A stretch of DNA of 64,000 nt, from NCBI GenBank assembly GCA_022510485.1, contig JAFLTI010000001.1, forward strand, positions 32,068-96,067, written 5' to 3'. The notes under the pieces are model-generated. The model was given only the letters and a program-made list of their open reading frames with translations. It was not told where the DNA came from and made no database searches. The position numbers and the translations under genes were made by a program. Positions 14,823 through 39,425 of the stretch are shown piece after piece. The DNA is from Lentimicrobiaceae bacterium. GTDB taxonomy: Bacteria; Bacteroidota; Bacteroidia; Bacteroidales; P3. Numbering within the stretch: the stretch's first letter is position 1; each line of letters begins with the position of its first letter.

Positions 14823-14914
14823 TTCCGTGCAGGCTTTAATTTTTGACAAAAATAGCACAAGCCATCTTGCAAAAACAGCCCTTCGGAATCAATCCATTCA
14901 CAAGCCAAGGTTAA

Positions 14915-17900
14915 TTACAGTTTTATCAGCTTGCCTTTTTTACGCGAGCCTCCGGTAAGTCCGATTTCGTAGAAATAGCAGCCTGCCTGTATGTTTGCCA
15001 AGCGTACCCTTGCCGATTTCACGCCGTCTTCGGAGAACTTGCGGTATAGGATATACCGTCCCGTTACGGAGAAGATACGTATGCTTTTCAGATTTTCGTT
15101 TTCAGAAAGGATATGCAAATCCTCGCCCTCGCGCACGGGATTGGGATAAATCCGTATGCCGGATACCGAATCGGGATTTTCCGGAACAACCGGTTCGTCG
15201 GGATCAAGTGGAGGATCGGCAGGCTTGGGAGCATCCACCGAAGCGGTAAAGATTTCGGTATGCGTAACGATATAATCGTAGGAAGGGCTATTCGACACCT
15301 GTACAAAATCGGCATCGTTCCAAAACTTGAATACAACGCTGTCGTAAAGATAGATTCTTACCCGTGCGGTATCTCCCCAATAGTATGAACCGTCGCCATA
15401 ACTCAATCCGCCATAGCCGGGATATACCGAGGTTGCCACATTATAGCGTTTGGGCGTGAACACCGCCACATAATCGGCATCTTCTTTCACTTCAGGCCTC
15501 AATACGGCTTCCGTCTGCACCACTTCGCCATTTTTTGTCCACGCATAGAAAACATGATCGGCATCCGCCTTGGCTTCAAAAGAAAGCAAGGCTCCGTAGT
15601 CGAACATTCCTCCCTTGGTAACCGTACCTGTACCAAGAGGAGAAACCCCGGTTGAAATACGGAACTGCAAGGGTTCAAACATTGCCGTAAGCGAAATATC
15701 TTCGGTAACATACAGGCTCAATACCGGCAAAACCGCCTGTTTTTCATCAAGGTTTTCCGATTCCCAACGCACAAAACGATAGCCTGCATCGGGCACGGCT
15801 TCTACCTGCACCGAAGAAGCATACACCGCCTCTCCGCCGCCCGAAACACTGCCACCCTCGCTGGCTGCCACCCCAACGTTCACCACAGTGGGAATAAATC
15901 CGGCACGAACCGAAGTACTTCCGTTCAATGTGAGTGTATAGGGATTCTGCCTGCTCAGGCGGTTGCCCGACAAGTCGTACCATGCATCAAAAGCGTATCT
16001 TCCAAAGGCTTCGGCTTGCAATACCGCCACAGAACCCTTAAGATAATCGCCTCCGCCTGAAACCACGCTGCCGCCAAGCCCGGCATATACCGAAAGCCGC
16101 ACCGAATCTTGCGACAAATAAGCCGTGAGCGTAGTATCCTTGTTTACCGTAAAAGTATATTCCGCGCTGTCGGAAACCCAGCCATCGGCGGTTTTCCAGC
16201 CTTTGAACACATAGTTGCCGTAAACGGCGTTTACAGTAACCTCCGCACCATAGGGATACATACCGCCCCCCTGCACGCTGCCGAAAGCAGCGGGAGAGGC
16301 TGCCACCTGCACATGAAAGAGTTTGGGTTCAAAAACGGCTTCTATTTCCATATCATCGTCTACCGTCAATTCCAAAACAGCGGTCGCCCCCAAGAAACCG
16401 CCTCCGCTACCGGAAGTGGTCTTGCGCCAACTCGAAAAATTGTAGTTTTCGTTAGGTTCGGCGTGCAGTATTACCTTGCTGCGCTGTTCCACTATCGCGT
16501 AACGACCTTCGGGCAGCGTATCGTTAGGCTGCACAACTTCCAGCCATACCTCGCCGGCACTCTGATTGTTGGAGAAAATCTTGAGTTCCCGCTGCTTGAG
16601 CCTGAAATGTGCCGTAAAGGAAGTATCCTGTGTAATGAATACCGAAAGGATAGAAGAACGCGATACAATCTGTTCCGGGGCATTTTCTAAAACCCAGCTG
16701 TCAAATTCGTAGTCTCCCGTAGGCACAGCCTCTACCGTTACCGTACTGCCGTAAGGCTGGCTGTTGCTGTAATCTACAGAACCTTTCCTTATATCTTCCG
16801 GTTCGGCGCTGAACCTTTTATTTTCCGGAACAAAATCGGCATACACCGAGGTATCGCAGCGCATGGTAAGCGTAAATTCCGCCGTACGAGACACCCTCTT
16901 GCCCCAACGGTCGCGCCATTGGGAAAAACGGTAGTTCGGTTCGGCTGTCGCCTTGAGTGCAACCTGCGTTCCATAACCCAATCGGCTGCTATAGGGCACG
17001 CTGGTTTCAACCTTACCCTGTTCGCTGTCTGAAGAAAATACCTGCAAGGAATACGGAGTAGGTTCAAAATAAGCCAGCACACGCAGATCCTTGTCTACCC
17101 TTAGACCCGCAAAATCTTCCCTCATCGTGTCGTATTGCTGTTCGCCGCGTTCCAGCAACATATACTTCAAAGCATATCCATCCTCGGGTACCGGCAGCAG
17201 CATAGCCTCGGTAAGGTAATTGTAGGTACCCGTTCCGTTTACGCTACCCTGTCCTTCCACCACCTCAACCACCACGCTGAACTTATCAGGAGCGAAGTCG
17301 GCGGCAAGCCTTGTGTTTTCCTCTATGGTAAAAGAATAGACCGTATCTCTCGACAGGCAGTGTTTCTTTAAGGTATCGGCGGCTTCATACCAGCCGGCAA
17401 ATACATATCCGTATTCCGCCTTAGCCGCCAACCGGGCTTCATCTCCATAGATGTAGCTGCGTTCTCCCGATACGCTGCCGCGATCCTTTCCGCCCCAGAT
17501 TTCCACATCCACTTTGGGGGTGGCGTGTGTAAACACGGCAGTAAACGAGGTATCGTTAAACGACTGCAACTGCAAACGGTTTGAGGGTTGAGCCACGATA
17601 TTGCCGGCAGCATCGAGCCAATGGTCAAACGCGTGTCCCTTTGCCGGTTTTGCCTCCAATTCCATCCACAATTCGTTGCGGTAGTAACCTTGGTTCAGCA
17701 CTTCTCCGCAATCCGCCTCCGGAGAAACCGAAGCCGTTATATGGTGTGCGTTCTGACTGAAATACGCCACAATACGGGCATCTCCCCTTACTACATAAAC
17801 GGCATTGCTGTTTCGGGAATAGAGAGAATCCCTAACTTTGCCGTCTTTGGTATAAACCGTACGCCACTGAATAAAGGCGTAGCCATCCTTGAGGGTTTCC

Positions 17901-20707
17901 GCCACCAAACGGAGCGTATCGCCATAATAGACGTCTTGGGTGTGCATGGTGCCGAATCCGCCGGTTTGCGTACCTCTGTCAATGCGAACATGCCCTACGG
18001 CAGAAGAGCCTTCGGTCATCAAGTCCAAGGTATAGCGCAGGGGCGAAAAGCGGGCGTAAACCGTAGTATCGTTCTTAACTTGCAGATACAGGTTATTGTC
18101 TTTGGAACCTACGTGCTGCAAACTGTCTTCCCATTGCGAAAAACGGTACCCATAGGCAGGCTCAGCCCTTAAAACGGCATATTCGCCCGCAGCATAAAGT
18201 CCTTCTCCCGAAATGCTTCCGGCATTAAGGGGACGGCAAACCGCCCGTATGTCCTTACGGCGTTCACTGAACACCCCCACCAAGTCTAAATCTTCCAACA
18301 CTTCCACCTTGTAAGGATTTTCTTCCGAAACCTTGGTGATGTTCAAGCCCCGGCGGGTTCCCCAGTAGAGAAATTCGTAACCTGTTTTTGCCTGTGCCTG
18401 CAAGATGGCGGTATCAAAATGAACATATTCGCCCTCGCCGCTCACCGTACCGTAGCCGGAGGGTTCCATCGAAAGCCTTACATTATGCCGTTTAAGTTCA
18501 AACAAAGCCCTATAGACCCTATCCTTACCCTCTTCGATAGTAAATACCAACGGATTATCGCGAACGGTATCCAACATGCCGTGATCGGTTCTTACCCATG
18601 CCACAAAATTGTAGTGGTCGAGAGGTCTTGCCCGGAGGCTTACCGATGTTCTGAACGGATAAGTGCCTGCCCCCTCTATGGAGCCTGCCCCGGCAGGAAC
18701 AGCCACTGCGGAGATATTGAATTCCTGTAGGGCGAAATATGCCGTAAACGACATATCTTTTGATAAACGACCCCTATCCAATGCCGTGTAGGGGTTGTCT
18801 TCGTATATCGTACCGTCATCGTTCGACTGCCAATAAAGAAATTCGTAGCCCGTATTGGGTTCGGCTTTCAAGATAATGGTAGTGTTGCTCGCGGCGGCGG
18901 AATAGCGGCCTCCCCCCGACACTATCCCTGCTCCCGGTATATTGGATACCACCGAAACCGTGTGGGTTTCTTGTATAAAGAGAGCCTTCAATATGCGGTT
19001 TTTCTGCGCCGTAAAGGTATAGGTCGGCTCATAGCTTACCGTATCGCGCCCTTCTATCCATGCTACGAAATTACAGTACGGAAACGGCGTGGCAACAAGT
19101 TCTACGGTACTGCCGAATTCTTTCAGACCGCCGCCGCTCACGCTCCCCATACCCTCGGAGATTTCCGCCACCGAGGCATCAATATTTACCTTGCCTTTTT
19201 CAAACACGGCGGTAACCTGCATATCCGACAGGATATTGAAGATATATATCGCTTCGTTAGAAAGCAGCGTTCCATTGGCAGTTCCCAAATAATAGCCTTT
19301 GAAAACATAACCCTCATCGGCAACCGCCTCCAAACGTACCCTATCGTTATGATTGAAGGTTGTACCGGGAGAAACCACCGAACCCTGCCCCTCCGTAAGC
19401 AGGGTAAGCCGGTATGTATTGATTGCAAAAATGGCTTCGAGCCTGCGGTCGGCATTTGCCGTAAAGCTATAGGTGGCACCCGCGCCCTCCACTTTTTTAC
19501 CGTTTTCTTCCCAATGGTCAAAATGATAGCCGGTAAACGCTTCCGCCACCAAAGTAACGGTGGAGCCTTCCTCATAACCGCCCGCTCCCTTTACCGTACC
19601 GTATCTTTCGTCTGCCGTAGCGGTAATGGTATAACCGCGCATCAATACAAGTTCTTCGGAATATGGCTCACTGAGCAGGTTGCGGTCAAGGGCGCGCAAC
19701 CTCACTTTATAGTGCGTTCCTAAAGGAGTGTTTGCCGGAATGGTGGCATTAATCACTCCGCCGGTTTCGGTTTCTATGCTGCCTATCTGTATGGCATTGC
19801 TAAAATTGCCCGCAGCATCGGAAAGTTCCGCCACTACCCGGCTTTTCTGCGCCGAGTTGGCATTGAGGGCTATCGTACCCTTTACCGTAAAGGGTATATC
19901 GATATATGCCGCACCATTGCGCATATTGATGCTGGTAACGGACAGCGTGCTGATGGATATTTCGGGATTGTAGACAAACAGCAAATCGTCTACATACATA
20001 TCCGCCACTGCACCGCCCGGCTCTCTGTTGGTGTTGATGTTTACCAGAATATAACGGGCATCATTGCTGCCACATCCGCTGCGGTCAAAGGCTGCGCTGT
20101 AACGTACCCAGCCTCCGTTGCCTTTTTGGGGCTGTATGGTAGCTATCGCCACCGACTGATTCACATCCGTTCCCGGATCTTGAATAGTGTTGTCGTTGTG
20201 TATAATAGCCTTTATCTGCCCTCGGCTGGAAGCATTTCCGGAAGAGTATTTTACCCATATCACCAAAGAATCGGGTACGGTGGTAAAGGGAAAATTAAAA
20301 CCCTCCGAAGAACGGTCGGTATAGGCGTTGTTGCTTAGATGGGTAGCCGTCATGTTCCCCATATTGATACGGCCGGTGGTTATAATTCCGTTGGCGTTTA
20401 CTCCGATTATACTATTGCCCCATAAATGCACACTGTAAGAACCCGCCGAACCGGGACGGATATCGGTAACCCGTTCCAGACAAACTTGCGCCATATTGGA
20501 GTAGCCCCCGCTGGCGTGCATAAACGAGTTCCAGCCCACCGGTTCCACTTTGTTCGTGCCTAAATCATCGTATTCTTCAAAACCCCGGTTATGCACCTGC
20601 TGGGTTCCGTTCACCTCCTGCGCCGAAACTTCCGGCATACCCAAAAAAAGACCGAAAAGCGACAATAAAAGTCCGCACGTTTTGCCAAAAGATATATTCA
20701 TTTTCAT
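14915..20707 (-). CDS. Giant InlB-repeat surface protein B1 with T9SS signal
   Basis: The 1930-aa product has a signal peptide (about 1-29). A PCMD-like N-terminal domain (about 33-250) begins NRGFEEYDDLG and ends ADMYVDDLLFVYNPE. An Ig-like domain (about 250-357) follows, then by my count 19 InlB-B-like repeats of 70-95 aa (about 359-1830). A short Pro/Asp-rich linker leads to a type-A T9SS sorting domain (last 80 aa: IRIYPNP, FSVTGRYILYRKF, AGCYFYEI, basic end). Typical repeat cores are GTVSGEGEY, AKTGYEFLYW and LVGVFS. It should cross the outer membrane through T9SS and be attached to the surface or released. It starts 9 bp after gene A1 and has no promoter of its own. InlB-type repeats suggest an adhesin, but the ligand is unknown. 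Confidence 0.85.
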   Translation of the reverse strand: MKMNISFGKTCGLLLSLFGLFLGMPEVSAQEVNGTQQVHNRGFEEYDDLGTNKVEPVGWNSFMHASGGYSNMAQVCLERVTDIRPGSAGSYSVHLWGNSIIGVNANGIITTGRINMGNMTATHLSNNAYTDRSSEGFNFPFTTVPDSLVIWVKYSSGNASSRGQIKAIIHNDNTIQDPGTDVNQSVAIATIQPQKGNGGWVRYSAAFDRSGCGSNDARYILVNINTNREPGGAVADMYVDDLLFVYNPEISISTLSVTSINMRNGAAYIDIPFTVKGTIALNANSAQKSRVVAELSDAAGNFSNAIQIGSIETETGGVINATIPANTPLGTHYKVRLRALDRNLLSEPYSEELVLMRGYTITATADERYGTVKGAGGYEEGSTVTLVAEAFTGYHFDHWEENGKKVEGAGATYSFTANADRRLEAIFAINTYRLTLLTEGQGSVVSPGTTFNHNDRVRLEAVADEGYVFKGYYLGTANGTLLSNEAIYIFNILSDMQVTAVFEKGKVNIDASVAEISEGMGSVSGGGLKEFGSTVELVATPFPYCNFVAWIEGRDTVSYEPTYTFTAQKNRILKALFIQETHTVSVVSNIPGAGIVSGGGRYSAAASNTTIILKAEPNTGYEFLYWQSNDDGTIYEDNPYTALDRGRLSKDMSFTAYFALQEFNISAVAVPAGAGSIEGAGTYPFRTSVSLRARPLDHYNFVAWVRTDHGMLDTVRDNPLVFTIEEGKDRVYRALFELKRHNVRLSMEPSGYGTVSGEGEYVHFDTAILQAQAKTGYEFLYWGTRRGLNITKVSEENPYKVEVLEDLDLVGVFSERRKDIRAVCRPLNAGSISGEGLYAAGEYAVLRAEPAYGYRFSQWEDSLQHVGSKDNNLYLQVKNDTTVYARFSPLRYTLDLMTEGSSAVGHVRIDRGTQTGGFGTMHTQDVYYGDTLRLVAETLKDGYAFIQWRTVYTKDGKVRDSLYSRNSNAVYVVRGDARIVAYFSQNAHHITASVSPEADCGEVLNQGYYRNELWMELEAKPAKGHAFDHWLDAAGNIVAQPSNRLQLQSFNDTSFTAVFTHATPKVDVEIWGGKDRGSVSGERSYIYGDEARLAAKAEYGYVFAGWYEAADTLKKHCLSRDTVYSFTIEENTRLAADFAPDKFSVVVEVVEGQGSVNGTGTYNYLTEAMLLPVPEDGYALKYMLLERGEQQYDTMREDFAGLRVDKDLRVLAYFEPTPYSLQVFSSDSEQGKVETSVPYSSRLGYGTQVALKATAEPNYRFSQWRDRWGKRVSRTAEFTLTMRCDTSVYADFVPENKRFSAEPEDIRKGSVDYSNSQPYGSTVTVEAVPTGDYEFDSWVLENAPEQIVSRSSILSVFITQDTSFTAHFRLKQRELKIFSNNQSAGEVWLEVVQPNDTLPEGRYAIVEQRSKVILHAEPNENYNFSSWRKTTSGSGGGFLGATAVLELTVDDDMEIEAVFEPKLFHVQVAASPAAFGSVQGGGMYPYGAEVTVNAVYGNYVFKGWKTADGWVSDSAEYTFTVNKDTTLTAYLSQDSVRLSVYAGLGGSVVSGGGDYLKGSVAVLQAEAFGRYAFDAWYDLSGNRLSRQNPYTLTLNGSTSVRAGFIPTVVNVGVAASEGGSVSGGGEAVYASSVQVEAVPDAGYRFVRWESENLDEKQAVLPVLSLYVTEDISLTAMFEPLQFRISTGVSPLGTGTVTKGGMFDYGALLSFEAKADADHVFYAWTKNGEVVQTEAVLRPEVKEDADYVAVFTPKRYNVATSVYPGYGGLSYGDGSYYWGDTARVRIYLYDSVVFKFWNDADFVQVSNSPSYDYIVTHTEIFTASVDAPKPADPPLDPDEPVVPENPDSVSGIRIYPNPVREGEDLHILSENENLKSIRIFSVTGRYILYRKFSEDGVKSARVRLANIQAGCYFYEIGLTGGSRKKGKLIKL

Positions 20708-20716
20708 CTCTCCTGC

Positions 20717-23700
20717 TTATTGGTTGGTGGTTTTACGGGTTCTGGCATCAAGTTTTATGGGGCGTGTAACCGTAAAAGTATCTTCTACCTGTACCGATAT
20801 GGGGGTGTCTGAACCTACCTCGAACCAGCCTATAAATTCGTAGCCTTGCCGAACCGTAACTTTCAGTTTGGTAGTTTCGCCCTTGTAAAAAGAACCCGCT
20901 CCGCTCAAATTGCTCAAACCCTCGGGCGTGGTGCTGCTTAATTCTACATACAGCACATCGGGCATAAAGTGCGCCTCCGTATGCAGGGCGGTAGCCCTAT
21001 CCGTTTCAAATTCTTGGTCGGTGCTTATAATGCTGTCGCCTAAGCTCCAGTAGGCAAAATGGTAATCGGGTTTTGCCTGAGCCTGCAAAACGAGCGTGTC
21101 GGCGGTTTCCGATTCTTCAATAACGGAGATAGAACCGCCCTCAGCCCTGTTTACATAGGCTTCTACCGGGGTAATGTCCTTTTCAAAAACGGCAGTCAGG
21201 GCAAGGTCTGAAACAACGGCAAACGACAAGGTGTCTTTTTCCGAAAACAGATTCTTTCCGCAATACCATGCCTTGAGGCGGTAATCTTCGGCAGGGGTCG
21301 CCGTGAGCAAGGCTTCTTCGCCAAAACCGTATTCAGCCGCGCCCGATACGGAGCCTTCTCCCTCAAGCTGCAAATCAATACGGTAACGTTCCGCCTGCCA
21401 TTGGGCTACCAAGTCTGTATTCTGCCTAAGCGGCATCACGAAATCGGGTTCCTGAGAAACGGTTTCGCCCGATGCGTTTTTCCATGCCACAAAACGGTAG
21501 CCGGCTGGCATTTCGGCTATCCAGATATTGGCATTGCTTTCGTAGGCATAAACGCCCGAACCGAACACTTGCGCCCCTTCTACGGAGGGATTCAAACTTA
21601 GGTTAAAGGTATCGGGTTCAAAAACGGCTTCTATATCGCGGTTCTGCCGCATAACAAGCCTTATTGCCGCTTGACTGCCCAAATGTATGCCGCGTTCCTG
21701 CCACGCTGCAAAATGATAGCCCGGCTCGGCTTGCGCCACCAGTTCCGCCGCGCTGCCGTGTTCATAAACCTCTTCGCCGTCTACACTGCCTTTTCCGTTT
21801 ACTTTTACCTTTAACAGGTGGCTTACGGGCTTAAAGAATGCCGTTAAAACAGTATCGCCTGCCACTTTATGGCTCATCTGCGCCGAAAGCGAAGCCGTAT
21901 CGCGTCCGTCTTCATAATGGCTCCAATAGGCAAACTCCACGCTGTCGCTCCAAGCAAAGGCTTCTAATGTTACGGTGGAACCGTAAGCATACATACCTTC
22001 TCCGCCAACACCGCCTTGATTGTAGTCTGCCGGAACAGGCTTAATCAGATAATCTTTCGGACTGAACACCGCCCTTACTTCCATAGCCGAATCTACCTGC
22101 AAGGCATACGCGCTGTCGTAAGAAAGCACTTTTCCGTCTACCATATAGGCGTAAAAACGATAGTGTTCATCAGGCTGAGCGTTCAAATCCGCCCACGTGC
22201 TGTACTTGTATTTTCCATCGCCCTGCGCGCTTCCGCTGCCGGCAGGCTCTACCTTTAACGAAACTTCATATTCTACGGTGTCGAACAGTGCCGTAAGCGT
22301 ACGACCGCCCTGAGGCACAAAAGCGTGTTGCGCGCTTTCCCATACAGCAACCGTATCGGTATCATCTTCGCTCTCTACAAGAATATACTTATTGAACTCC
22401 ATACCCTGCGCCGGAATAATATCAAGGCGGATACTGTCTTCGTATAATACCGCTATCTCGCCCAGCATCTGTCCGCCCTCATATTGAATCCTGCCGGCAT
22501 TCTGAGGTTCCACCACCAAAGTGGAAATCACCGGCAGAGGTTCAAACCATGCAATAACATCAAGTTCTCCGCTTACCGTAAAAGTCCATCTATGCTGGTA
22601 ACTTACCACCTCTCCGTTTTGGTTGTGCCAACCGGCAAAATCGTAATGGAGGTCGTGTTCAACAAACAATTCACAGGTAGAAAGGTATTTATAATAGTAT
22701 GCACCGTCTTTTTCTATGTAATCGCCAGCCGGTGTAACCGAACCCCTAAGAGGATTGCGCGGTTTTGCCGCAATGCGGAACAGGGCAGAGTCGAACACGG
22801 CTGTAAAGGAAGTATCTCCTTTGCTTATAAAATGTAAGGCTGGATCGTCAGAAACAATCTCGCCCGCTTGGTTTTTCCAGTGCGAAAACACATATCCGTA
22901 GGCGGGAACAGCCGTTGCCGTAGCCTCGATACCGTAAAACACCTCGCCGCTACGCACCCTGCCGGCATCTTCCGGTTCAACGGTAAACTCAGGATAAAGT
23001 TTTTCCGGGCGTATCACGGCGGTTAACTGCTCCGCCCCCTCCACATCGTGCAGATAAGGATTGAGGCGGCTCACCGTATCGCCTTGCGCATTGAGCCATG
23101 CCGCCACTTCATAGCCTTGTTTGGCATAAGCATAAACATTGGCGTTATAGGCATACTGATAGTCGCCCGCGCCGAAAAGCGAATCCACCTTGGCGGTATC
23201 ATCGGCTCGTACATCAATAAAAAATTTATGTTCTTGGAACTTGGCTGTAAAATAGCGGTCGGAAGTCAGTTTAACGGTAAATGCCAGATTCGTCTCAACC
23301 AGCGTATCCGCCTCGTACCAACCCAAAAATTCGTAGCCTTCCGAACCATCCACGCTTATCGGTACTTCCATTCCTCCGGTATAACGCCCCATTCCATGCA
23401 GTACCCCTATATCCAAGGGCCATACGAACAAGCCCACCGTGTACTGCTGCTGTATAAAACGCCCCCTCAGCACCGTGTCGCGGTTTACCGAAAAGCCTTC
23501 TTGCGTATAAGGACTGCACAAATTTTCGTTTTTATCATACCAGCCCTCAAATTCATAACCGCTTTCCGGCACGGCGTGAACCTGAACAAAATCCATATAG
23601 CCGAAATCCTTTACCGTCTGGCTTTCTTCCCCAACAAACATTACTTTACCCTCGCCAACGGCTTGCAGCTCTACCTTAAACATATTTGCCGAGAATACGG

Positions 23701-26491: not shown

Positions 26492-26511
26492 AGTAATACT
26501 TCAAAACACAA

Positions 26512-26519
26512 CAAATTTA
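26512..26519 (-). promoter_or_regulatory. -7 box of A1 gene
   Basis: On the minus strand the sequence reads TAAATTTG, an exact TAnnTTTG match, about 20 bp upstream of the A1 start codon. No good -33 element is visible 19 bp further upstream. Confidence 0.5.
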
Positions 26520-26685
26520 GAGCACATTCCCCTCCTCTTTTCCCGATTACCTACCGAACTTCGTCGCCCACACTCCACTTTTACAATGGTAAAAGAATAT
26601 AACATATATGATAATCAATAAAATAAATTAAAATTTCTCTATATAGCACTCCTTTCTCAAAAATTACCGAACACAACTCACTCAT

Positions 26686-26722
26686 AAAAAAAAAGAGGAG
26701 GGGTGTCCCCTCCTCTTTTTTT
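26686..26722. terminator. Bidirectional terminator after B2
   Basis: GAGGAGGGG (26695-26703) and CCCCTCCTC (26707-26715) form a perfect 9-bp stem with a TGT loop. An A-run (26686-26694) and a T-run (26716-26722) flank it and extend the stem. It lies 13 bp beyond the stop codon of the minus-strand gene B2. Confidence 0.92.
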
Positions 26723-26735
26723 ATAGCAAAGCAAA

Positions 26736-29700: not shown

Positions 29701-32207
29701 CCTTCTTGCTTTACCACTTTTATCGTAAACTTTTGCGGAACAAAGTCAGCGGCAAGCCATCTATGTTCCTCTATGTTAAAGGTATAAGTGGCGCTTTTCT
29801 CCAAACAGTTGGTTCTCAAAGTGTCGGCAGCATCATACCAACCCGAAAAAACATATCCGTATTCCGGCGTGGCTGTCAACGTAACAGCAGTTTCATATTT
29901 ATAAGCACCTTCCCCTTCCACGCTGCCGCAATTGTTTCTTCCCCAAATATCCACATCCACTTGCAAGGTGGCTTGAGTAAAGACCGCCTTTACCGTTGTA
30001 TCGTGGAACGACTGTATTTGCAGGCGGTTCGACGTTTGAGGCATAGGATTCCCTTCTTCATCCAGCCAATGTGAAAAATCGTAACCCTTTGCCGGTGCGG
30101 CTTCCAGTTCCATCCACAATTCGTCTCGATAATAGCCTTGGTTAAGCACTTCTCCGCTCGCTTCGGGTTCAACCGAGGCAGTTATAAGATGGGCATCGGT
30201 ATGAAAGTATCCCACAATACGGCTATATCCCCTTACCACATAAATGGCTTCTTGATTACGGGAGTAGAGCGAATCCTTAACCTTTCCGTCTTTATCGGTA
30301 TAGAGTGTGCGCCATTGGATAAAGGCATAGTTTTCGTCCGTATTCGCCTGTGCTTCCAAATGCAGGGTATCGCCGTAATAAACCTCCAAGGTGTGCATCG
30401 TTCCCAGATCCACCTTGCCTTTGGCTCCCACCTTGCCGCCCACCGAAGACGCCCCTTCGGTCATCAGGATAAAATCATAGCGCAAGGGCGTAAAACTGGC
30501 GTATACGGTGGTATCGGACTGCACCCACAGGTTCAGCTGCGGGCTTCTCGAAACCACCTCGTGCTCTCCGTTTTCCCAATGAGAAAAACGGTAGCCCTCG
30601 GCAGCCTCCGCCGTTAAAGTGGCATATTCGCCTGCCACATAGGGGCCTTCGCCCGATATGGTTCCGGCATTGGCAGGCAGGCTCTCCGCCTTTACGTGAT
30701 TGCGCAGTACGCTGAACACGGCAACTAAGTCCACATCCTGCAACACTTCCACCTTATAAGGATTCTCTTCCGAAACCTTGGTGATATTCAAACCTCTGCG
30801 GGTACCCCAATAGTTAAATTCGTAACCCTCTTCCGGCATGGCTTTCAAAACGGCAGTATCGAAATGGGCATACGAACCGTCGCCACTCACCGTACCATAG
30901 CCCTCTTCAGGCTGGGTCGAAAGCCTTACGGTATGCCGTTTAAGTTCAAACAAAGCCTTGTATGTTCTATCTAAACCCTGATATATGGTAAATATGAGAG
31001 GATTGTTGATATTGGTATCCGCACTGCCTCCGGGCTTACCGGCATCGGTCCTTACCCACGCCACAAAATTATAATTGTCATAGGGTATGGCACGGAGCGT
31101 TACCGACGAGTTATATTCATAAGTACCGGCGCCTTCGATAACCGCCGCTCCCTCGGGAACGGTTTCTACCGCAATATGAAAGTCTTTTATTGCAAAATAT
31201 GCCGTATAAGACAGATCTTCCCTTAAATGTCCGTTCTTCAAAACCGTTATGGCGGAGTCTTCGTACACAGCACCGTCTTTATCCGATTGCCAATACAGAA
31301 ATTCGTAGCCTGTATTCGGTCTGGCAGTTAATACAATGGTATTATTATCCGCTGCCGAATATCTCCCCGCTCCGGTAACCGTTCCCGACCCAAATATATT
31401 TGCCGTAGCGGAAACCGTGTGGTATTCCATACTAAATAAAGCCCTGACGGTACGTTTTCTCTCTGCCACAAAGGAATATACAGGATTCTTGCTTACCGTA
31501 TCGCGACCTTCCATCCATGCCACAAAGCGGTGAAACGGATTGGGATAAGCGGTAAGGGTTACAGGGCTTCCTGCCTCATACTTTCCAGCTCCTTTCACGG
31601 TACCCATGCTCACCGAGGTTTCCGCAACCGAGGCATCAATTTCTATCTTGCCTATTTCAAACACCACAGCAATCTGCATATCCGACTGGATATAAAATAC
31701 ATATACCACAGAATCGGAAAGCAGCGTACCTGCTGAAGAACCCAAATAATAGCCCTTGAACGAGTAACCCGAACTCGGACTGGATTCCAGACGTACCCTA
31801 CTGTTGTGTTCAAAGGTGGTTCCGGGAGGAATAACAATCCCATCTCCCTGCTTAACCAAAGACAGCCTATAGGTATTGATTACGAACACCGCTCTGAGCG
31901 TACGGTTGGCATTCGCCACAAAACGGTAGGTGGCTTCCGCTCCTTCCACTTTTTGACCGTTTTCTTCCCAACGGTCAAAATGGTAGCCCGTAAACGGAGT
32001 TGCCGTCAAAGTAACGGTATCGCCTTCCTGATAGGTACCGTCGCCTTTTACCATACCTGTCCTGTCGTCGGATACCGTAGCCCTGATGGTATAAGTTTGC
32101 CGGGCTTCGTTCCCCGATTGTGCAAAAACTTTCGGCATACCTAAAAGGAGACCGAAAAGCGACAATAAAAGTCCGCACAATTTACCAAAAGATATATTCA
32201 TTTTCAT
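26736..32207 (-). CDS. Giant InlB-repeat surface protein B2 with Fn3_assoc domains and T9SS signal
   Basis: The 1823-aa product has almost the same signal peptide as B1 (MKMNISFGKLCGLLLSLFGL). It passes straight into the repeats: the PCMD-like and Ig-like domains of B1 are missing. I count 19 repeats that line up one-to-one with those of B1. After the repeats come two domains of about 80 aa resembling chitobiase/Fn3_assoc modules (about 1535-1615 and 1650-1730). Each has GSTVSISCATA and ATIYYT and is followed by a VNSAVAEATF-like stretch. A Gly/Pro/Asp linker separates them. A type-A T9SS sorting domain covers about 1743-1823. It starts 9 bp after A2 and should be displayed or released at the surface. 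Confidence 0.85.
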   Translation of the reverse strand: MKMNISFGKLCGLLLSLFGLLLGMPKVFAQSGNEARQTYTIRATVSDDRTGMVKGDGTYQEGDTVTLTATPFTGYHFDRWEENGQKVEGAEATYRFVANANRTLRAVFVINTYRLSLVKQGDGIVIPPGTTFEHNSRVRLESSPSSGYSFKGYYLGSSAGTLLSDSVVYVFYIQSDMQIAVVFEIGKIEIDASVAETSVSMGTVKGAGKYEAGSPVTLTAYPNPFHRFVAWMEGRDTVSKNPVYSFVAERKRTVRALFSMEYHTVSATANIFGSGTVTGAGRYSAADNNTIVLTARPNTGYEFLYWQSDKDGAVYEDSAITVLKNGHLREDLSYTAYFAIKDFHIAVETVPEGAAVIEGAGTYEYNSSVTLRAIPYDNYNFVAWVRTDAGKPGGSADTNINNPLIFTIYQGLDRTYKALFELKRHTVRLSTQPEEGYGTVSGDGSYAHFDTAVLKAMPEEGYEFNYWGTRRGLNITKVSEENPYKVEVLQDVDLVAVFSVLRNHVKAESLPANAGTISGEGPYVAGEYATLTAEAAEGYRFSHWENGEHEVVSRSPQLNLWVQSDTTVYASFTPLRYDFILMTEGASSVGGKVGAKGKVDLGTMHTLEVYYGDTLHLEAQANTDENYAFIQWRTLYTDKDGKVKDSLYSRNQEAIYVVRGYSRIVGYFHTDAHLITASVEPEASGEVLNQGYYRDELWMELEAAPAKGYDFSHWLDEEGNPMPQTSNRLQIQSFHDTTVKAVFTQATLQVDVDIWGRNNCGSVEGEGAYKYETAVTLTATPEYGYVFSGWYDAADTLRTNCLEKSATYTFNIEEHRWLAADFVPQKFTIKVVKQEGEGNIIGIGEYDYLDEVLLIPDPAPGYEIKYMLLVREPAYDTFREYFAGVNMTQDWKLEVYFEPITYALQVFSSNVDMGSVVTEDSYKDLEAGSEIKLVAKPGQNYRFFQWRDRWGKRLSRSEDYTVTVWRDTVVYADFLPENKTLIAESENILQGEVIYTNQPYYGNTVRVEALPAEGYEFDSWVLKNKPDQVVSNSSILSVYVTQDSSLVARFRPIHRTINLRPNIQGGGDIWLEIVQDQDPENTVNEGRYAYVKQNSRAILHADPAHNYEFSSWLRRNSSARLGGINLGKEPVVSIEVDENIEIEAVFEPKLFHIQVKADANLGSVQGSGYYGYGEKVTIKATPGDYAFKGWKTADGWISYNPEYMLTVTKDTTVIAYFSYDSVRLALYADLGGSVSGDGSYLKGTTAVARATASEKYTFDAWYDLSGKRLSNKNPYTLTLNESSSMRAKFIATELNVGVVATEGGKVEGGGKTFYASSVQLEAIPDLGYRFVRWESESANLDRQRASLPVLNWYVTENVTFTAVFEPLRYYVEVEASPLLAGTVSGGGTFNYGASASLVARPDANHDFFAWTRNGEVVETNPSLNMEVMEDAAYVALFVPKRYNVDTWVEPQYGGLSYGGGSYYWGDTAKLGIYLYDSVTFKYWSNADDEQLSVLETYLYPVLSAGNFTAWVDAPESLRDPDDDPDNPHKPNLDTVFMPVFTPAGGMVDSGSTVSISCATADATIYYTINGNNPTENSARYDAPIVINEAMTIRAFAVKDSMVSSAVAVATYTIRPGSGGGDGGGDTVGPGPGPGPDPDKPGDTVKTPVFTPDGGEIERGSTVSISCATAGATIYYTVNGEDPTVENSQEYTEPIVIDEAMTIKAFAIKEERVNSAVAEATFTVKSEGGDDPNQDTLNPDRHIKVRVYPIPLGKDEELHIESDRKNIQSIRIFSVTGRQILYRRFSQDGVQSVSVYLLDVQAGCYFYEINLTGGARKKGKLITT
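27030..27605 (-). repeat. Duplicated Fn3_assoc-coding segment in B2
   Basis: Two segments of about 240 bp within B2 are close copies at DNA and protein level. They are separated by a low-complexity GGTCCGGGACCGGG-type stretch (about 27300-27360) encoding a Gly/Pro/Asp linker. This points to a local tandem duplication inside the gene. B1 has neither copy. Confidence 0.75.
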
Positions 32208-32216
32208 CTCTCTTTC

Positions 32217-35200
32217 TTATTGGTTGGTGGTTTTACGGGTTCTGGCATCAAGTTTTATAGAACGGCTCACCTTAAAGGTATATTCCGTCTGGGTTGATAT
32301 GGGGGTGGTTGAATCTTCTTCAAACCATCCTATAAATTCGTAACCCTTCCTTACATCCACTTTCAGCGTGGCTTGATCATCCTTGTAGAAAGATCCCGAA
32401 CCTATCAGTTCCCTTAAGCCTTCGGGCGTGGTACTGCTCAGTTCCACATAGAACACATCGGGCATAAAATGCGCCAATGCACGTAAGGAGGTTGCCTTAT
32501 CCGTTTCTATGCGTGGGTCGGTGCTTATTACAGTGTCGCCCAACGTCCAATAGGCAAAGTGGAATGAGGGTTCAGGCTGTGCCTGCAAAATAAGCGTGTC
32601 ACCGCTGCCGGTTTTTTCCGTAACCGAAACATATCCGCCCTCCAGTCTGTTGATAAAGGCATCCGGATCCGTATTTTCTTCAAAAACAGCGGTCAGCGTA
32701 AGATTTGAAAAAACGGTAAGAGTTAAGGTTGCTCTTTCGGAAAACAACTCTCCTGAACGATACCATGCCTTAAAGCGCGACGAGGCTTTAGGTATTGCCG
32801 TCAGTTCTGCCGGGGCGCCATAGGGGTATCCGTTGGCTTGGGCACCTTTCACATCGCCCCTGCCCTCAACTTTCAACTCTATGCGGTAACGTTCCGCCTG
32901 CCATTCGGCACGCAAGGAAGTGTCTTGCGTAACAGGCAATACAAAATCGGGCACTATGGAAACCGTGTCGCCGGCATCGTTTACCCATGCCACAAAACGG
33001 TAGCCTGCCGGTGTACCGTCGGTATAGATGTTAACATGGCTGCCATAAGCATAACTGCCTGCGCCGAACACATGCACGCTTGTGGGCAAAGAAGCCAGAC
33101 TTACACGGAGCATATCGGGTTCAAAAATGGCTTCTATCGTACGGCTTCTCTTCATATCAAACGAGATTTCCGTTTCTGTACCGAGTATTATGCCATTTTC
33201 TTTCCATGCCGAAAAATGATAACCCGCCTCGGCTTGCGCCACCAACGAAACTTCGCTGCCATGCACATAAACGTTTTCTTTCGGCAATTCTTCTCCCTCT
33301 GCCAGCAACACTTTGCCGTTACCGCTCACTTGCAGCCTCAATTGGTAGGAAGCGGGCTTAAAGAATGCCGTAAATCCCGTATCTCCCCTTACCTCATGGC
33401 TTATCCTCGCAATAAGCGCTACCGTATCGCGACCGTCGGCATAGCGGCTCCAATAATCAAATTCCACGCTATCGCTCCACGTATATGCCTCCAGCGTTAC
33501 CGTAGAACCGTACGCATACCGACCCTTGCCGCTCACATTGCCTTGCGTGCTGTCTGAGGTGCGGGGCTCTACTAAATATTCTTTCGGACTGAACACCGCC
33601 CGTATTTCCATAGCCGAATCTACCTGCAAGGCATACGCGCTGTCGTAAGAAAGCACTTCATCCCCTGCCTTATAGGCATAGAACAGGTAGTGTTCGTCTG
33701 CCTCCGCCTTCAGTGAAGCCCACGTGCCATACTTGTATTCTCCATCACCCTGCACGCTTCCACTGCCTGCCGGTTCAACCGATAAGCCTATATTATAGCC
33801 TATCGTGTCAAAAAAGGCAGTAACCGTACGTCCGCCCTGCGGAACAAAGGCATGCTGCGCGTTTTCCCAAACGGCAACCGTATCGGTATTGTCTTTGCTT
33901 TCTACAAGAATATACTTATTGAACTCCATACCCTGCGCCGGTATAACGTCAAGACGGATGCTGTCTTCGTATAACACCGATACATCGCCCAGCATCTGTC
34001 CGCCCTGATACTGTACCGTTCCTCCTGTTTCGGGTTCCACCCGTAAGGTAGAAACAACAGGCTTGGGTTCAAACCATGCGATAACATCCATATCGCCGGT
34101 TACCGTAAAAATCCAACGGTGCTGGTAGCTCACCACCTCTCCCGTTTCATTATCGTGAAAACCGGCAAAATCGTAATGCAGGTCGTGTACAACAAACAAT
34201 TCACAGGTAGAAAGGTATTTGTAATCCAGCTCTAAATACGTGCTGTCTCCTACCATATTTTCATAGCCGCTTGCCGTTATCCAGCCACGAAGCGGATTGC
34301 GCGGTTTTGCCACGATATGGAATATTGCCGAGTCGAACACTGCCTTAAAGGTCGTATCCACTTTCGTTACAAAATCCAAAGAGGCATTTTCTGTAATCTT
34401 TACGCCCGCCGCATTTTCCCAATGCGAGAAAACATATCCGTATGCAGGCTTAGCCGTTGCCGTTGTATGCTCCCCGTAAAAAACATCCCCGCAAGCCACG
34501 CTGCCGGCATCTTCCGGTTCGATGATGAAAGTAGGATAAAGCTTTGCCTTGCGTATCACGGCGGTCAATGTTTCATTGCCCTCGATATCATGCAGATAGG
34601 GATTGCGGCGGCTCACCGTATCGCCTTGCGAGTTTATCCATGCCTCTACCTCGTAGCCTTGCTTAACATCGGCATACACATTGGTATTGAACGAATACTT
34701 GTATTCGCCATCTCCCGACAGTCCGTTTACCAATTCAGGAGAATCGGTTTCCAGATTAATCGTATATCTGTTTTTCTCGAACCGGGCGGTAAAATAGCGG
34801 TCGGTCAACACTTGTATCGAAAAACTCGGACTCTCTGTATATAAAGTGTCTTCCTCCCACCAGCCTTCAAAAGTATAACCCTCTGAAATATTTATCGATA
34901 TATCTGCCGTTGTACCATGCGCATAACGACCCATACCGCTAAGTTCCCCTACATCCATAGGCCATGCAAACAAGCCCACCGCATGCAGCTGCTCCACAAA
35001 ACGCCCTATAATCACCGTATCGCGGATAACCGAAAAACTTTCTTCCTTATATGAACTTTGCAGATTGCCATTTTTGTCATACCAGCCCGCAAACTCATAC
35101 GTTTCATCCGGCACGGCTTGAATCTCTATAAAATCCTCAAAATCGAACTTCTCGGTTTTTGTATCAGGTCCGGTTATGGTTTCTTCGGAAATCCGCATTT

Positions 35201-38200
35201 CCGTGCTTTTTATTACCACCTTACCATGTTCTCCGGCTTGAATTTTTACCGTAAACTGATCTGCCAAGAACCTTGCTTCAAGGGTGGTATCGCCCTCTAT
35301 CGCCTCAATAAAAATTCTCAACTCTTTAGAAACCTCTACTCCGTTAGAGAACCAACCCACAAACGTATGTCCGGGAAAAACTTCTGCCAAAATCTCAACC
35401 GGGCTGTGCCATTCGTAAACACCGCCGCCGCTAACCCACCCATAGGAGGGGTTGTTGGATGTAACGGTAACATGAGAACGGGGTTCGCTAAAAATGGCAA
35501 CAATCTCCGTACTCTCTTTTGACACCGTAAAATCATAAACAGGGTTTGATGTGGGAAGCGTATCGCCGTCTACAATCCAATAGCGGAACTCCTTGCCTGT
35601 TGCAGGCTCTGCGGTCAATTGCAGCGTGCTGCCATAAGGGTAAAGGTTTTGATCATTGGCTTCCGGATTATTTACCCTACCTAAACTTTCATCGTTGGAG
35701 CTGATTTCCACCTTAAACTGTTCAGCTTCAAAAACGGCACGGATAACACTGTCTTGCAGCACCGTTACATAATGCGTTTGGGATGTGCCCAATTCGGTAG
35801 AACCGCTTACCCATTTTACAAAACGATAACCGAAATTGGGGGTGGCCTGCAAAGTTACCCTTGTGCCGTAGGGATATGTTCCCGAACCCGAAGCGGAGCC
35901 ATAGGCAGCGGGATCTGCCGCTACATTCAAGGTATAGTCGAGCGGACCGAAGAATGCCGTAAACTCATAATTGGCATCCAAATGTTCGTTTTTAGTTACA
36001 TAATACACTCCATCTTCCAAATCTTGCACAGTAAGGGTATCGTAAATTTCCCCATTTCTGCTTACCGTCCAATAACGGAAACTCCAACCCGTATTGGCTA
36101 CCGCCCTGATAAAAATGGAGGTACGGTTAAACGCACTGTACGTACTGTCTGCTTTTGCTGCCGCACATTGCAGTACATAACCGCCTCCCGCTTCAGATAC
36201 CCTTACGCTTACCTTAAAGGTGGTTTCTGTAAACACAGCTTGATAGCTACCGCCTGCACCGGTACCGATGTTTTCAAAACGTAATTCCGGATTGGTCGGA
36301 TCCGCTCCCTCAGGCAGGCTGCCCCTTAAGACGTTCCAACGTGAAAAATGGCTGTACTCCTGCGGTTCCTTAGGTTCCGCCTTGGCTACTACGGTAGTAA
36401 AATGCTTGAATGAATGATTTCCGCTGGGGTTTACCGTAGCAAGCCTGTCGTCGGATACCGAAAACTCAAATTCATACTCAATCGTGTCTGTTCTTACCTC
36501 AATGGCGCCGCCACGTTCCACAGGCCAGTTGATACAGACAACCCCATCGTCTTGGGAAAACACCCGGGGGTCATTTTCCGTTGTTCCGATAGGATCAAGA
36601 TAGAATTGACGGAACACATAGCCCTCTTTGATACGGGCGCGCACCAATGCCGTTTCTCCGCGCACTATGGTCAGTTCCTGACGATTATTTATCGCATTCT
36701 CGTTTTCAAACCAAGGCTCAGCCCCTACCGATTCGGCAAAGGTAAGGGTAAAGGTGGTATCGAAAATAGCCATCAGGTTGCGATCCCGGGTAATGTGGAA
36801 CGTATAGTCCGCAGCTGCCGGCTGCTCACCGTCCATTACGGTAGTTCCATTTTCTTCCCAACGTAAAAAGCGGCATTTTTCATTGTTTGCGCGGGCAAAG
36901 GCGTTTATCACGCTGTCGTGGGCGCAGTGCTGCATATACACATTGTTGGTAATTCCGTAATTGGTTCCGCTAATGGTGAGATTCCACCAGCGGTAGAGAT
37001 CCAAGCTTATGGTATCGCCCGGCAAATCATAATTGGTAGATTCTATCCTTATCTTGTAATTGGGCGAATTTGCCGCGTCGGCAGGCAGGGTAACACGAAT
37101 GGAGGTCTGATGCAGAACATTGTCGCCTCCGTTTACGTTGACGGAGCCGATTAAGGTTTGGGTAGTGAAATTGCCGTTAACATCCGAAAGATAAACATTC
37201 AACTGGTTCTGAGCTCCGGGATTCTTGGGATCTTGCGAACCGGAATAGAATGTATAGGGTAAATCCAAAGTAGCCGCGCCACCGTGCTGATTTATAACCC
37301 TTTTGCTTTTGTCGTCAAAGCGCAGAATGGGATTATATACAAATATCACGTCGTCTATCCACATCTGATCGTCTTTCCATACCTCTTTCATACTGGGAGC
37401 TGCCGTAAAGAGCAACAACAGATAAGAGGGATTTTCGTCTCGGACATATTCGATAGGGAAACTATACCTTTTCCATTCTTGACCTTCAGTTCTACCTATG
37501 TAATATCTCGAACCACCGATATAATCTTCGTTGGCGTTTTCTAACCTGTCCGGCTCCCCTCTATCATTCATCACCCACTTTTGATAAGGGTGCTCGCTAT
37601 CTCCATAATTCATATCAGGCCATGAAACAAAGTTGACAGGTCCATGTAAAAAGAGCTTTACCGAAACAGAGTCTGATTGGTTGGTTACTGCCGTTTTTGC
37701 CCAAAACGTAATGGAGTCGGGGCGTCCGGTAAATTTCCAACTTTTCGATTCATCTCCAATTTTAGAATAGATACAACTACCGTCAATCTCCTTACCGGCA
37801 TAGTAAATCGTTCCCGTAGTCAAAGTTCCGAAGTCGTCCTGACCATCGAAGTTTTCTGGACCATCTCCCTTTCCCCACCTATTTTTTTCCGAAACCTGCA
37901 GGCGAGCGGAATGTCCGGTACCACCAAGATGAGGTTCATCCTGAAATACCGATGGCTTGGGATAGACGTCGGTGGAAGGGTAACCCTTTACGTCAAAGGT
38001 CAGACTCGAATTCCAGCCCCAAGGCTCAAAAGCCGTTCCCGGCGAACCGTCATCTTTCCTATAGGTTATTTCATCCCATCTCTCAAAATTGAAGTTGGGA
38101 GCCTGCAACGTTCCGTTCAGGGTTACGTCTTGAGCCTGCGTACGGGTCGTACCCAAGAGCCCCGCTACCCCTATAACTAAAATAATAAAAATCCTGACTG

Positions 38201-38210
38201 TTGTTTTCAT
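32217..38210 (-). CDS. Giant InlB-repeat secreted protein A2, no sorting signal
   Basis: At 1997 aa this is the longest of the four. It has a signal peptide (about 1-26, ending RTQAQ) and a PCMD-like domain (about 35-300, beginning NFNFERWDE and ending QMWIDDVIFVYNP). An Ig-like domain reaches about residue 410, and about 20 InlB-B-like repeats follow. It ends exactly like A1 (KLDARTRKTTNQ), without a T9SS domain. Some repeats are nearly identical to A1, for example FNKYILVES and QHAFVPQGGRT, while others differ considerably. It is the first gene of the A2-B2 unit, with a -7 box at 38237-38244. Confidence 0.85.
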   Translation of the reverse strand: MKTTVRIFIILVIGVAGLLGTTRTQAQDVTLNGTLQAPNFNFERWDEITYRKDDGSPGTAFEPWGWNSSLTFDVKGYPSTDVYPKPSVFQDEPHLGGTGHSARLQVSEKNRWGKGDGPENFDGQDDFGTLTTGTIYYAGKEIDGSCIYSKIGDESKSWKFTGRPDSITFWAKTAVTNQSDSVSVKLFLHGPVNFVSWPDMNYGDSEHPYQKWVMNDRGEPDRLENANEDYIGGSRYYIGRTEGQEWKRYSFPIEYVRDENPSYLLLLFTAAPSMKEVWKDDQMWIDDVIFVYNPILRFDDKSKRVINQHGGAATLDLPYTFYSGSQDPKNPGAQNQLNVYLSDVNGNFTTQTLIGSVNVNGGDNVLHQTSIRVTLPADAANSPNYKIRIESTNYDLPGDTISLDLYRWWNLTISGTNYGITNNVYMQHCAHDSVINAFARANNEKCRFLRWEENGTTVMDGEQPAAADYTFHITRDRNLMAIFDTTFTLTFAESVGAEPWFENENAINNRQELTIVRGETALVRARIKEGYVFRQFYLDPIGTTENDPRVFSQDDGVVCINWPVERGGAIEVRTDTIEYEFEFSVSDDRLATVNPSGNHSFKHFTTVVAKAEPKEPQEYSHFSRWNVLRGSLPEGADPTNPELRFENIGTGAGGSYQAVFTETTFKVSVRVSEAGGGYVLQCAAAKADSTYSAFNRTSIFIRAVANTGWSFRYWTVSRNGEIYDTLTVQDLEDGVYYVTKNEHLDANYEFTAFFGPLDYTLNVAADPAAYGSASGSGTYPYGTRVTLQATPNFGYRFVKWVSGSTELGTSQTHYVTVLQDSVIRAVFEAEQFKVEISSNDESLGRVNNPEANDQNLYPYGSTLQLTAEPATGKEFRYWIVDGDTLPTSNPVYDFTVSKESTEIVAIFSEPRSHVTVTSNNPSYGWVSGGGVYEWHSPVEILAEVFPGHTFVGWFSNGVEVSKELRIFIEAIEGDTTLEARFLADQFTVKIQAGEHGKVVIKSTEMRISEETITGPDTKTEKFDFEDFIEIQAVPDETYEFAGWYDKNGNLQSSYKEESFSVIRDTVIIGRFVEQLHAVGLFAWPMDVGELSGMGRYAHGTTADISINISEGYTFEGWWEEDTLYTESPSFSIQVLTDRYFTARFEKNRYTINLETDSPELVNGLSGDGEYKYSFNTNVYADVKQGYEVEAWINSQGDTVSRRNPYLHDIEGNETLTAVIRKAKLYPTFIIEPEDAGSVACGDVFYGEHTTATAKPAYGYVFSHWENAAGVKITENASLDFVTKVDTTFKAVFDSAIFHIVAKPRNPLRGWITASGYENMVGDSTYLELDYKYLSTCELFVVHDLHYDFAGFHDNETGEVVSYQHRWIFTVTGDMDVIAWFEPKPVVSTLRVEPETGGTVQYQGGQMLGDVSVLYEDSIRLDVIPAQGMEFNKYILVESKDNTDTVAVWENAQHAFVPQGGRTVTAFFDTIGYNIGLSVEPAGSGSVQGDGEYKYGTWASLKAEADEHYLFYAYKAGDEVLSYDSAYALQVDSAMEIRAVFSPKEYLVEPRTSDSTQGNVSGKGRYAYGSTVTLEAYTWSDSVEFDYWSRYADGRDTVALIARISHEVRGDTGFTAFFKPASYQLRLQVSGNGKVLLAEGEELPKENVYVHGSEVSLVAQAEAGYHFSAWKENGIILGTETEISFDMKRSRTIEAIFEPDMLRVSLASLPTSVHVFGAGSYAYGSHVNIYTDGTPAGYRFVAWVNDAGDTVSIVPDFVLPVTQDTSLRAEWQAERYRIELKVEGRGDVKGAQANGYPYGAPAELTAIPKASSRFKAWYRSGELFSERATLTLTVFSNLTLTAVFEENTDPDAFINRLEGGYVSVTEKTGSGDTLILQAQPEPSFHFAYWTLGDTVISTDPRIETDKATSLRALAHFMPDVFYVELSSTTPEGLRELIGSGSFYKDDQATLKVDVRKGYEFIGWFEEDSTTPISTQTEYTFKVSRSIKLDARTRKTTNQ

Positions 38211-38236: not shown

Positions 38237-38244
38237 CAAAGTTA
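38237..38244 (-). promoter_or_regulatory. -7 box of A2 gene
   Basis: The minus strand reads TAACTTTG, an exact TAnnTTTG match, about 27 bp before the A2 start. The -33 position is AT-rich without a clear TTTG. Only the A genes, not the B genes, have such a box. Confidence 0.5.
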
Positions 38245-38456: not shown

Positions 38457-39425
38457 TTAGCGTTTAATCGCCTTGAGGACTGCCGAACCCTGCCTGTTGG
38501 TTAAGCGGATATAGTAAACGCCGGTGGCAAAGCGCGACAAATCTACCGTATAGGCGCCGGCAGCAACAAAATCTTGCTGCATCATCAACATACCCGTAGC
38601 CGAAACCACATCCATTTGGCAAGCCTCTTTTACACTGAGGTTAAAGATGCCGTTGCGGGAGGGATTGGGATAGAGTTTGGAAGATGCCAGTACCGGATTT
38701 TCGTTTACCGAAGAGCCTTCGTAAACAAATTCCACATCGTCTACCCAAAGCGTGCTGCCCACCTGACCTTCGCAGGCAAACAAGTCGTCGAAGTTATAAC
38801 CGGCGCTGGAAACAAAGAGAACCGTAATGGAGTCGGGAGTGGCATCTGAATTGTACGTAATGGGCAATTCAAATGGAGTCCAATCCGTTATGGCTTCTTT
38901 ATAAAACTTTTCTACTTTGCCAATAGTCTGCCGTCTACCTGCATTTGCGTCGTAGCGATAAACTTCCACAAAGATGCTTGCGCTATCTCCCTCTACCGGG
39001 GCATACTTCATATATCCCTTGATTTTTGCAGGACGGCTCACAAACGGACGACCGAACTCGGCACTTTGTTCATCAACCAATACTCTCAATGCGCCTACTA
39101 CACCCGGTAAGAATATCAGCTTACCGTCAGTTCCGAATCGCATGGTATCGGATCTCATTTTGGGCGCAAAATCTCCTTCGGCACCGGAACGACCTTGGTC
39201 TTTGAACAGGGTTACGGGACCGGTAAACATATCGGGAGGCAAGGTGGCTATCAAATTGAGGGAAGCCCAAAAAGGATTGGCAACATCATCGTAAATAGTT
39301 CCCCAATACGTGGTATTCTGTTCCCATTGTTCAAACTTGCCGTCAGGCAGAGGTTGCTGATTCTGAGACATCGACTTTCCTATAAACAAGGAAAGCACTC
39401 CCAAAAGTAAAATCGTCTTTTTCAT
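38457..39425 (-). CDS. PCMD-domain protein with T9SS sorting signal
   Basis: The start at MKKTILLLGVLSLF gives 322 aa; the frame has another Met three codons earlier. A signal peptide (about 1-20) is followed by one PCMD-like domain (about 22-235). This starts LPDGKFEQWEQ and ends STLWVDDVEFVYEG, the same layout as the N-termini of A1, A2 and B1 but with no InlB repeats. The last 70 aa form a type-A T9SS domain (SKLYPNPSRNGIFNL, ATGVYYIRLTN). It is the second gene of a unit with the TonB-dependent receptor, 27 bp downstream of it. It is probably a surface-exposed or released binding protein that works with that receptor; the ligand is unknown. Confidence 0.8.
   Translation of the reverse strand: MKKTILLLGVLSLFIGKSMSQNQQPLPDGKFEQWEQNTTYWGTIYDDVANPFWASLNLIATLPPDMFTGPVTLFKDQGRSGAEGDFAPKMRSDTMRFGTDGKLIFLPGVVGALRVLVDEQSAEFGRPFVSRPAKIKGYMKYAPVEGDSASIFVEVYRYDANAGRRQTIGKVEKFYKEAITDWTPFELPITYNSDATPDSITVLFVSSAGYNFDDLFACEGQVGSTLWVDDVEFVYEGSSVNENPVLASSKLYPNPSRNGIFNLSVKEACQMDVVSATGMLMMQQDFVAAGAYTVDLSRFATGVYYIRLTNRQGSAVLKAIKR

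Follow-up and report, generated by a model that had tools for sequence, protein, structure and literature searches.

The stretch analysed here, hereafter the window, comprises 64,000 nucleotides of contig JAFLTI010000001.1 (GCA_022510485.1) from a Lentimicrobiaceae bacterium, and all coordinates are window positions. Within it, four minus-strand open reading frames, A1-B1-A2-B2, occupy positions 14915-38210 (23,296 bp in total, the "nearly 23 kb" of a first-pass annotation made from the letters alone) and encode giant repeat proteins of 1823-1997 amino acids arranged as two A-B pairs. We hold, with evenly divided confidence, that each pair makes up a co-made surface fibre of two paralogous subunits with heads resembling carbohydrate-binding modules (CBMs), in which B is anchored by the type IX secretion system (T9SS) and A is exported or held via B. 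The A/B pair is probably displayed on the surface of this gut bacterium. That one partner has lost its export tag throughout a clade is the interesting part of this finding; the paired layout itself has a known analogue.

The sorting domain of B and its absence from A

Known T9SS cargo are defined through their C-terminal domain. B and the A proteins of sister genera are alike in carrying a Sec signal and a type A sorting domain (TIGR04183/PF18962), whereas A of this genus differs in having no sorting domain. TIGR04183 (cut-off 23 bits) recognised the domain in only 4 of 15 A rows, all four from the sister genera, but in all except two of the 15 B rows (13), and a contig end cuts one of these two. 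In each of these four the array continues to a repeat 21 that is followed by the sorting domain, and the sister-genus locus L117 ends alike. When the complete A sequences of this genus were aligned, none carried a sorting domain (11/11) and all ended after repeat 20. We also turned the sorting domains of this set of proteins into a profile, for which positives are positive by construction and negatives are not; it returned nothing significant in A of this genus (best E 0.027, score 5.6, A1), and NCBIfam and Pfam scans (E up to 1) listed neither type B nor any other sorting-domain family in A. Consistent with these results, an AlphaFold2 model of the last five repeats of A2 closes with an intact last bead followed by a short tail (mean predicted local distance difference test score, pLDDT, 92). 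Because the domain is present in both sister genera and in the B paralogues, the simplest course of change, by parsimony on a midpoint-rooted tree, is that this genus lost it.

Purifying selection maintains the shortened A, which is not decaying. The ratio of nonsynonymous to synonymous substitution (dN/dS) of this A between two close species was 0.29 overall and, for the final 200 codons, 0.22, compared with 0.24 for A bearing a sorting domain and 0.21-0.30 for B, values that are rough where dS exceeds 1.

From its sequence, B is predicted to be T9SS type A cargo. In addition to the sorting domain, B bears a Sec signal (MKMNISFGK..LLLSLFGL..VSA-Q) in which a Q follows the cleavage site, in line with the Bacteroidetes Q-rule (PMC5837995). 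The genome encodes T9SS machinery, including a PorU sortase (954 bits) and a PorE-like protein, and has 56 sorting domains over the cut-off. The signal peptides of A1, B1, A2 and B2, assigned by eye from sequence, all end in A-Q. Export and anchoring of B would follow the standard T9SS route (PMC5445135). In the literature, which we covered in part, we found no described T9SS cargo without a sorting domain, no piggyback T9SS export and no pair with one domain-less partner.

Conserved pairing, repeat arrays and heads

Homologues were sought in 61 relatives, 190 genomes of the family and 393 genomes of the order, the named relatives being metagenome-assembled genomes. In 15 of the 15 genomes with both genes on one contig (11 of this genus and four of two sister genera), A is followed by an adjacent B on the same strand, which bears out for three genera the constant A-B order that the first-pass annotation had named as the support for its pairing. 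Other cases of A or B end at contig edges. Of 13 pairs measured, 12 have the first possible B start at a distance of -4 to 19 bp from A. Since independent assemblies concur in adjacency, protein ends and repeat counts, assembly error is unlikely. No close match was found in a plasmid collection searched for signs of plasmid spread. Outside the three genera the head occurs mostly in shorter proteins. One genome of another family (G310; L124 8730-16794) encodes a solo 2246-amino-acid protein with a head, 24 repeats and a sorting domain, followed by a 370-amino-acid protein with the same kind of head but without repeats and sorting domain. As the head is found elsewhere mostly in shorter proteins, with a solo giant in one other family, the pairing is best seen as a derived, stable feature of this lineage.

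Flg_new_2 of Pfam is matched by each of the four proteins, with E values between 2.7e-102 and 9.8e-144, and an iterated profile resolves their arrays into divergent InlB B-repeats, exactly 20 per A and 19 per B, in agreement with the count of about 19-20 per protein made previously. Gain and loss of units is frequent in tandem arrays. Here the A count was 20 in all 11 sequences of the genus and the B count was 19 in all 14 complete arrays from three genera, despite identity down to ~31%, and within the genus a repeat found its best match at the same position of the other array in 90% (A) and 94% (B) of comparisons. These constant counts and the positional orthology suggest that every bead has its own place. 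Foldseek comparison with the PDB gave only weak multi-domain matches. The C-terminal rod of A is similar to many Ig-type (immunoglobulin-type) rods, among them fragments of the Aureispira grappling-hook protein, and has no specific relative there.

A and B are paralogues with a common conserved N-terminal part, a head of ~330-390 residues in A1, A2 and B2 that is missing from B1. The A2 head model is most similar to 3s30, 4jrl, 3hbz and 4het (Z 16.0/15.7/15.7/14.8), which we take to be PF13201 members; CBM16/CBM4-type modules score clearly below these structures (Z 10-12), and the second domain of the head resembles the fibronectin type III (FnIII)-like domain of beta-glucosidases (Z 9.3). The head also matches the PF13201 PCMD protein encoded next to the pair (hhalign 96.7%), and PF13201 is not listed in direct domain scans of A or B. 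PCMD-type proteins (BT_2081, BVU_0247, BT_3745 and BACOVA_00087; 3hbz, 3s30, 4het and 4jrl) have this fold in common with the A2 head (Z 14.8-16.0) but are short and annotated as putative glycoside hydrolases with no ligand assigned, whereas here the same fold caps a 20-bead rod. Judging from the modelled structure, a glycan-binding role of the head is likely. In the third genus (L027, L030; G021, G031), the N-terminus of A is a glycine-rich stretch that replaces the PCMD-like head, so that the A head appears exchangeable while the B head is kept. A cassette related to the CHB_HEX_C_1 insert of B1 interrupts the PCMD/sorting-domain gene of G006 (contig C39 ~8624-8866, L099), as if such cassettes were mobile between cell-surface genes.

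The two pairs are related by descent. In maximum-likelihood trees (for B, a quick version), A1 and A2 form one fully supported group and B1 and B2 another, and relatives carry one pair, two being peculiar to the window genome. By their sequences, A1-B1 and A2-B2 are tandem duplicates of one ancestral pair. Relative to the outgroup G003, copy 1 has more unique changes than copy 2 in both partners (A: 365 vs 119, p 5e-29; B: 155 vs 69, p 9e-9), which marks the upstream pair as the diverging one. The gap between A and B measures 9 bp in both A1-B1 and A2-B2, as had been reported; given a single duplication, this identity is inherited and is not independent evidence. Collectively, the facts of the first-pass annotation stood, including the sizes and A1-B1/A2-B2 layout of the four genes, although it had missed the presence of a sorting domain in B and not in A, the A/B paralogy, the N-terminal head and the single duplication behind both pairs.

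Genomic neighbourhood and upstream sequences

The order porE-like, AIR-synthase-related, TonB-receptor-like, PCMD with sorting domain, A, B, arginase is kept genus-wide wherever the contig reaches. The part from the porE-like gene to B also occurs in L117 of a sister genus, and the third genus has A-B elsewhere. The PorE-like architecture matches the description of PG1058 (PMC5445135). The TonB-receptor-like and PCMD/sorting-domain genes (window 38457-42119) lie beside porE in this genus and in L117, and in the third genus (L120 6978-10699; L121 6530-10365) they lie beside genes resembling porV, porP and porK; this two-gene unit thus twice adjoins T9SS genes, at different places. Orthologues of the TonB-receptor-like protein (E up to 1e-60) are restricted to the three A-B genera. 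We considered this neighbour as a functional partner of the pair and set the idea aside, as co-occurrence in the same three genera is equally explained by common descent.

A Bacteroidota-type -7 box, TAnnTTTG, lies 34 bp upstream of A1 and 28 bp upstream of A2, with none within 300 bp upstream of B, so that the earlier assignment of promoter boxes to A only holds. Among relatives, the box is present before 11 of 13 A genes with upstream sequence vs 0 of 15 B genes, against a background of ~0.12 per 300 bp per strand; the upstream regions are homologous, and these occurrences are therefore not independent cases. Between the PCMD gene and A1 lies a strong 24-bp inverted repeat with a 1-bp loop and no clear T-run (38386-38434). 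An invertible promoter was considered and rejected, the inverted repeats near the A promoters being terminator-like hairpins and short pairs with no switchable segment evident.

Table 1. Coordinates of the A and B genes, their parts and their neighbours in the window
Feature	Position	Strand	Description or basis
A1	32217..38210	-	1997 aa; signal peptide (..TQAQ), PCMD/CBM-like + Ig-like head, 20 InlB B-like repeats, no sorting domain
B1	26736..32207	-	1823 aa; signal peptide, head lost, 19 repeats, two CHB_HEX_C_1/Fn3_assoc domains, T9SS sorting domain
A2	20717..26491	-	1924 aa; signal peptide, PCMD/CBM-like + Ig-like head, 20 repeats, no sorting domain
B2	14915..20707	-	1930 aa; signal peptide, PCMD-like + Ig-like head, 19 repeats, T9SS type A sorting domain
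A1 two-domain head	36957..38129	-	homologous to the modelled A2 head
A2 two-domain head, jelly-roll (PCMD/CBM-like) + FnIII/Ig-like	25316..26410	-	AlphaFold2, pLDDT 85.8
B2 head	19628..20617	-	homologous to A head; hhalign 100%, E 8e-45
A1 repeat array (20)	32241..36944	-	iterated profile
B1 repeat array (19)	27678..32075	-	iterated profile
A2 repeat array (20)	20741..25303	-	iterated profile; last repeat complete, then 7-residue tail
B2 repeat array (19)	15239..19615	-	iterated profile
B1-only insert between array and sorting domain, two CHB_HEX_C_1/Fn3_assoc domains	27045..27584	-	PF13290 E 1.7e-40
B1 T9SS type A C-terminal sorting domain	26739..26972	-	TIGR04183 E 5.4e-07, 29.5 bits
B2 T9SS type A C-terminal sorting domain	14918..15151	-	TIGR04183 E 6e-10, 39 bits
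TAACTTTG, -7-like box before A1	38237..38244	-	consensus match only
TAAATTTG, -7-like box before A2	26512..26519	-	consensus match only
Terminator-like hairpin (19-bp, with T-run) after B1, between both pairs	26685..26725	-	
Arginase-family protein, downstream flank of the pair in the genus	13605..14858	-	
325-aa PCMD-domain protein with T9SS sorting domain, conserved neighbour	38457..39434	-	PF13201, PF18962; synteny
TonB-dependent-receptor-like outer-membrane protein, conserved neighbour, genus distribution as A-B	39453..42119	-	
AIR-synthase-related protein, conserved neighbour	42260..43489	-	
PorE-like T9SS component	43473..46013	-	TPR, PD40 propeller, CarboxypepD_reg, OmpA

Readings of the pair and what it may mean

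The proposed fibre would be made as follows. A single operon would yield both A and B, which would pass the inner membrane via Sec, after which B would cross the outer membrane and be anchored by T9SS via its type A sorting domain, while A, its own domain lost, would be carried out and held at the surface through binding to B. The subunits would be rods whose Ig-like beads are fixed in number, at 20 for A and 19 for B, and which as a rule bear a CBM-like head at the N-terminus; for such rods the likely job would be attachment to a glycan or to another cell. In the window genome the operon would have been duplicated, with the upstream copy diverging. As A has no visible exit from the periplasm and yet is kept beside B with a similar head and a fixed array, an A-B complex in which the signal of B serves both is the most economical arrangement. 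The specific step this implies, in which A passes the T9SS translocon without a signal of its own because it is bound to B, which labels both rods, is one we advance only tentatively from sequence comparison. The idea first put forward for these genes, that two co-made subunits form a surface fibre or adhesin, is still the simplest reading and is supported by the pairing, with fibre and adhesin as its conjectural part.

Several points weigh against this reading. Binding of A to B, the surface location of A and operon transcription are all things we infer. In one species the A-B distance is 211 bp. The absence of a head from B1 makes the head dispensable in some copies, and nothing in codon usage points to high expression, the adaptation of A and B (0.57-0.60) lying below the median of local genes (~0.61) and below the value for ribosomal proteins (0.73). 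The selection acting on A is also what is expected if A acts in the periplasm. This last point belongs to an alternative we consider unlikely, namely that A of this genus, having lost its sorting domain, is now a periplasmic spacer or scaffold with B alone on the surface, both having ancestrally been T9SS-exported fibrillar adhesins. It would fit the confinement of the sorting domain to B in this genus, the retained signal peptide of A with its A-Q cleavage motif, and purifying selection, which is compatible with any function; however, twenty Ig-like beads would make a very long rod for the periplasm, the conserved A head is homologous to that of B, and the pairing is kept without exception. 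Alternatively, A could be exported independently of B, by an unrecognised T9SS signal or another outer-membrane pathway. Sorting-domain models are imperfect, TIGR04183 having missed one B row besides the truncated one, but the own-domain profile, the NCBIfam/Pfam scans and the plain repeat and short tail that end the A2 model all argue against a hidden signal, and we regard such export as quite unlikely. That A and B adjoin by accident draws on the commonness of InlB-repeat proteins in these genomes and on the solo B-like giant (head, 24 repeats, sorting domain) of another family, yet is very improbable given no within-contig separation in 15 genomes of three genera, a near-constant short gap and constant repeat numbers; none of the contigs found carries a complete A or B without its partner. 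That they are one protein split by a stop codon, through assembly error or readthrough, is barely credible: in this genome the A stop and the B start do share a frame, 9 bp apart, but in most relatives they do not (offsets of 0, 1 and 2 occur), B carries a separate signal peptide across species, and in the sister genera A terminates in a sorting domain of its own. A readthrough or split-gene fusion is thus contradicted by the varying frames and by the signal peptide of B.

Several described systems resemble the pair in part. S-layer (surface-layer) subunits usually rank among the most abundant proteins of a cell, and the codon adaptation of A and B argues mildly against such abundance. In Tannerella forsythia, the large S-layer proteins TfsA and TfsB depend on T9SS for surface display, are encoded side by side in the tfsAB operon and have been suggested to assemble together in equimolar amounts (PMC3354324, PMC4175972); this overturns the earlier claim that no described system has this paired layout. 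The likeness, judged by description and not by sequence, is that neighbouring genes of a member of the Bacteroidales specify two large surface proteins that depend on T9SS; however, TfsA and TfsB have 1179 and 1364 amino acids and sorting domains on both, whereas A and B are InlB-bead rods of 1.8-2.0 thousand amino acids and A of this genus has no domain. A two-protein S-layer would share the layout of two adjacent large secreted proteins in T9SS Bacteroidales, but long bead arrays with CBM-like heads resemble fibres and not compact lattice units, and both Tannerella proteins are described as sorting-domain T9SS cargo, which A of this genus is not; we consider it improbable. Fibrillar adhesins, which combine stalk arrays with an adhesive domain (PMC8286594), are alike in having a signal peptide, an N-terminal possible binding head, a tandem Ig-like stalk (here 20/19 Flg_new_2-type repeats, Flg_new_2 being a possible member of the published stalk list) and, in B, a C-terminal anchor. 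They differ in that here a constant pair of paralogous rods has fixed, unequal repeat numbers and one partner without anchor or export signal. SprB/SprF and PG1035/PorP, which represent type B sorting-domain cargo, with PorE as part of the PG1035 complex (PMC9143113), likewise present a T9SS surface protein that needs a partner, and a porE-like gene stands in this block; in those systems, however, the partner is an outer-membrane barrel and the cargo keeps its type B domain, whereas here both partners are predicted to be secreted rods.

Returning to the two-subunit fibre, the fixed and unequal numbers of beads (20/19), positionally orthologous over species that are ~40% identical, argue for individually specified parts of a defined assembly and not for a length-variable stalk. 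If A does pass the translocon bound to B, the pair would amount to an experiment of nature in which a signal was lost and the loss became fixed throughout a genus. In an operon-like pair of homologous giants, a partner that is domain-less genus-wide, under purifying selection and never seen apart from its tagged partner makes a sharp, testable case for T9SS co-export of a complex.

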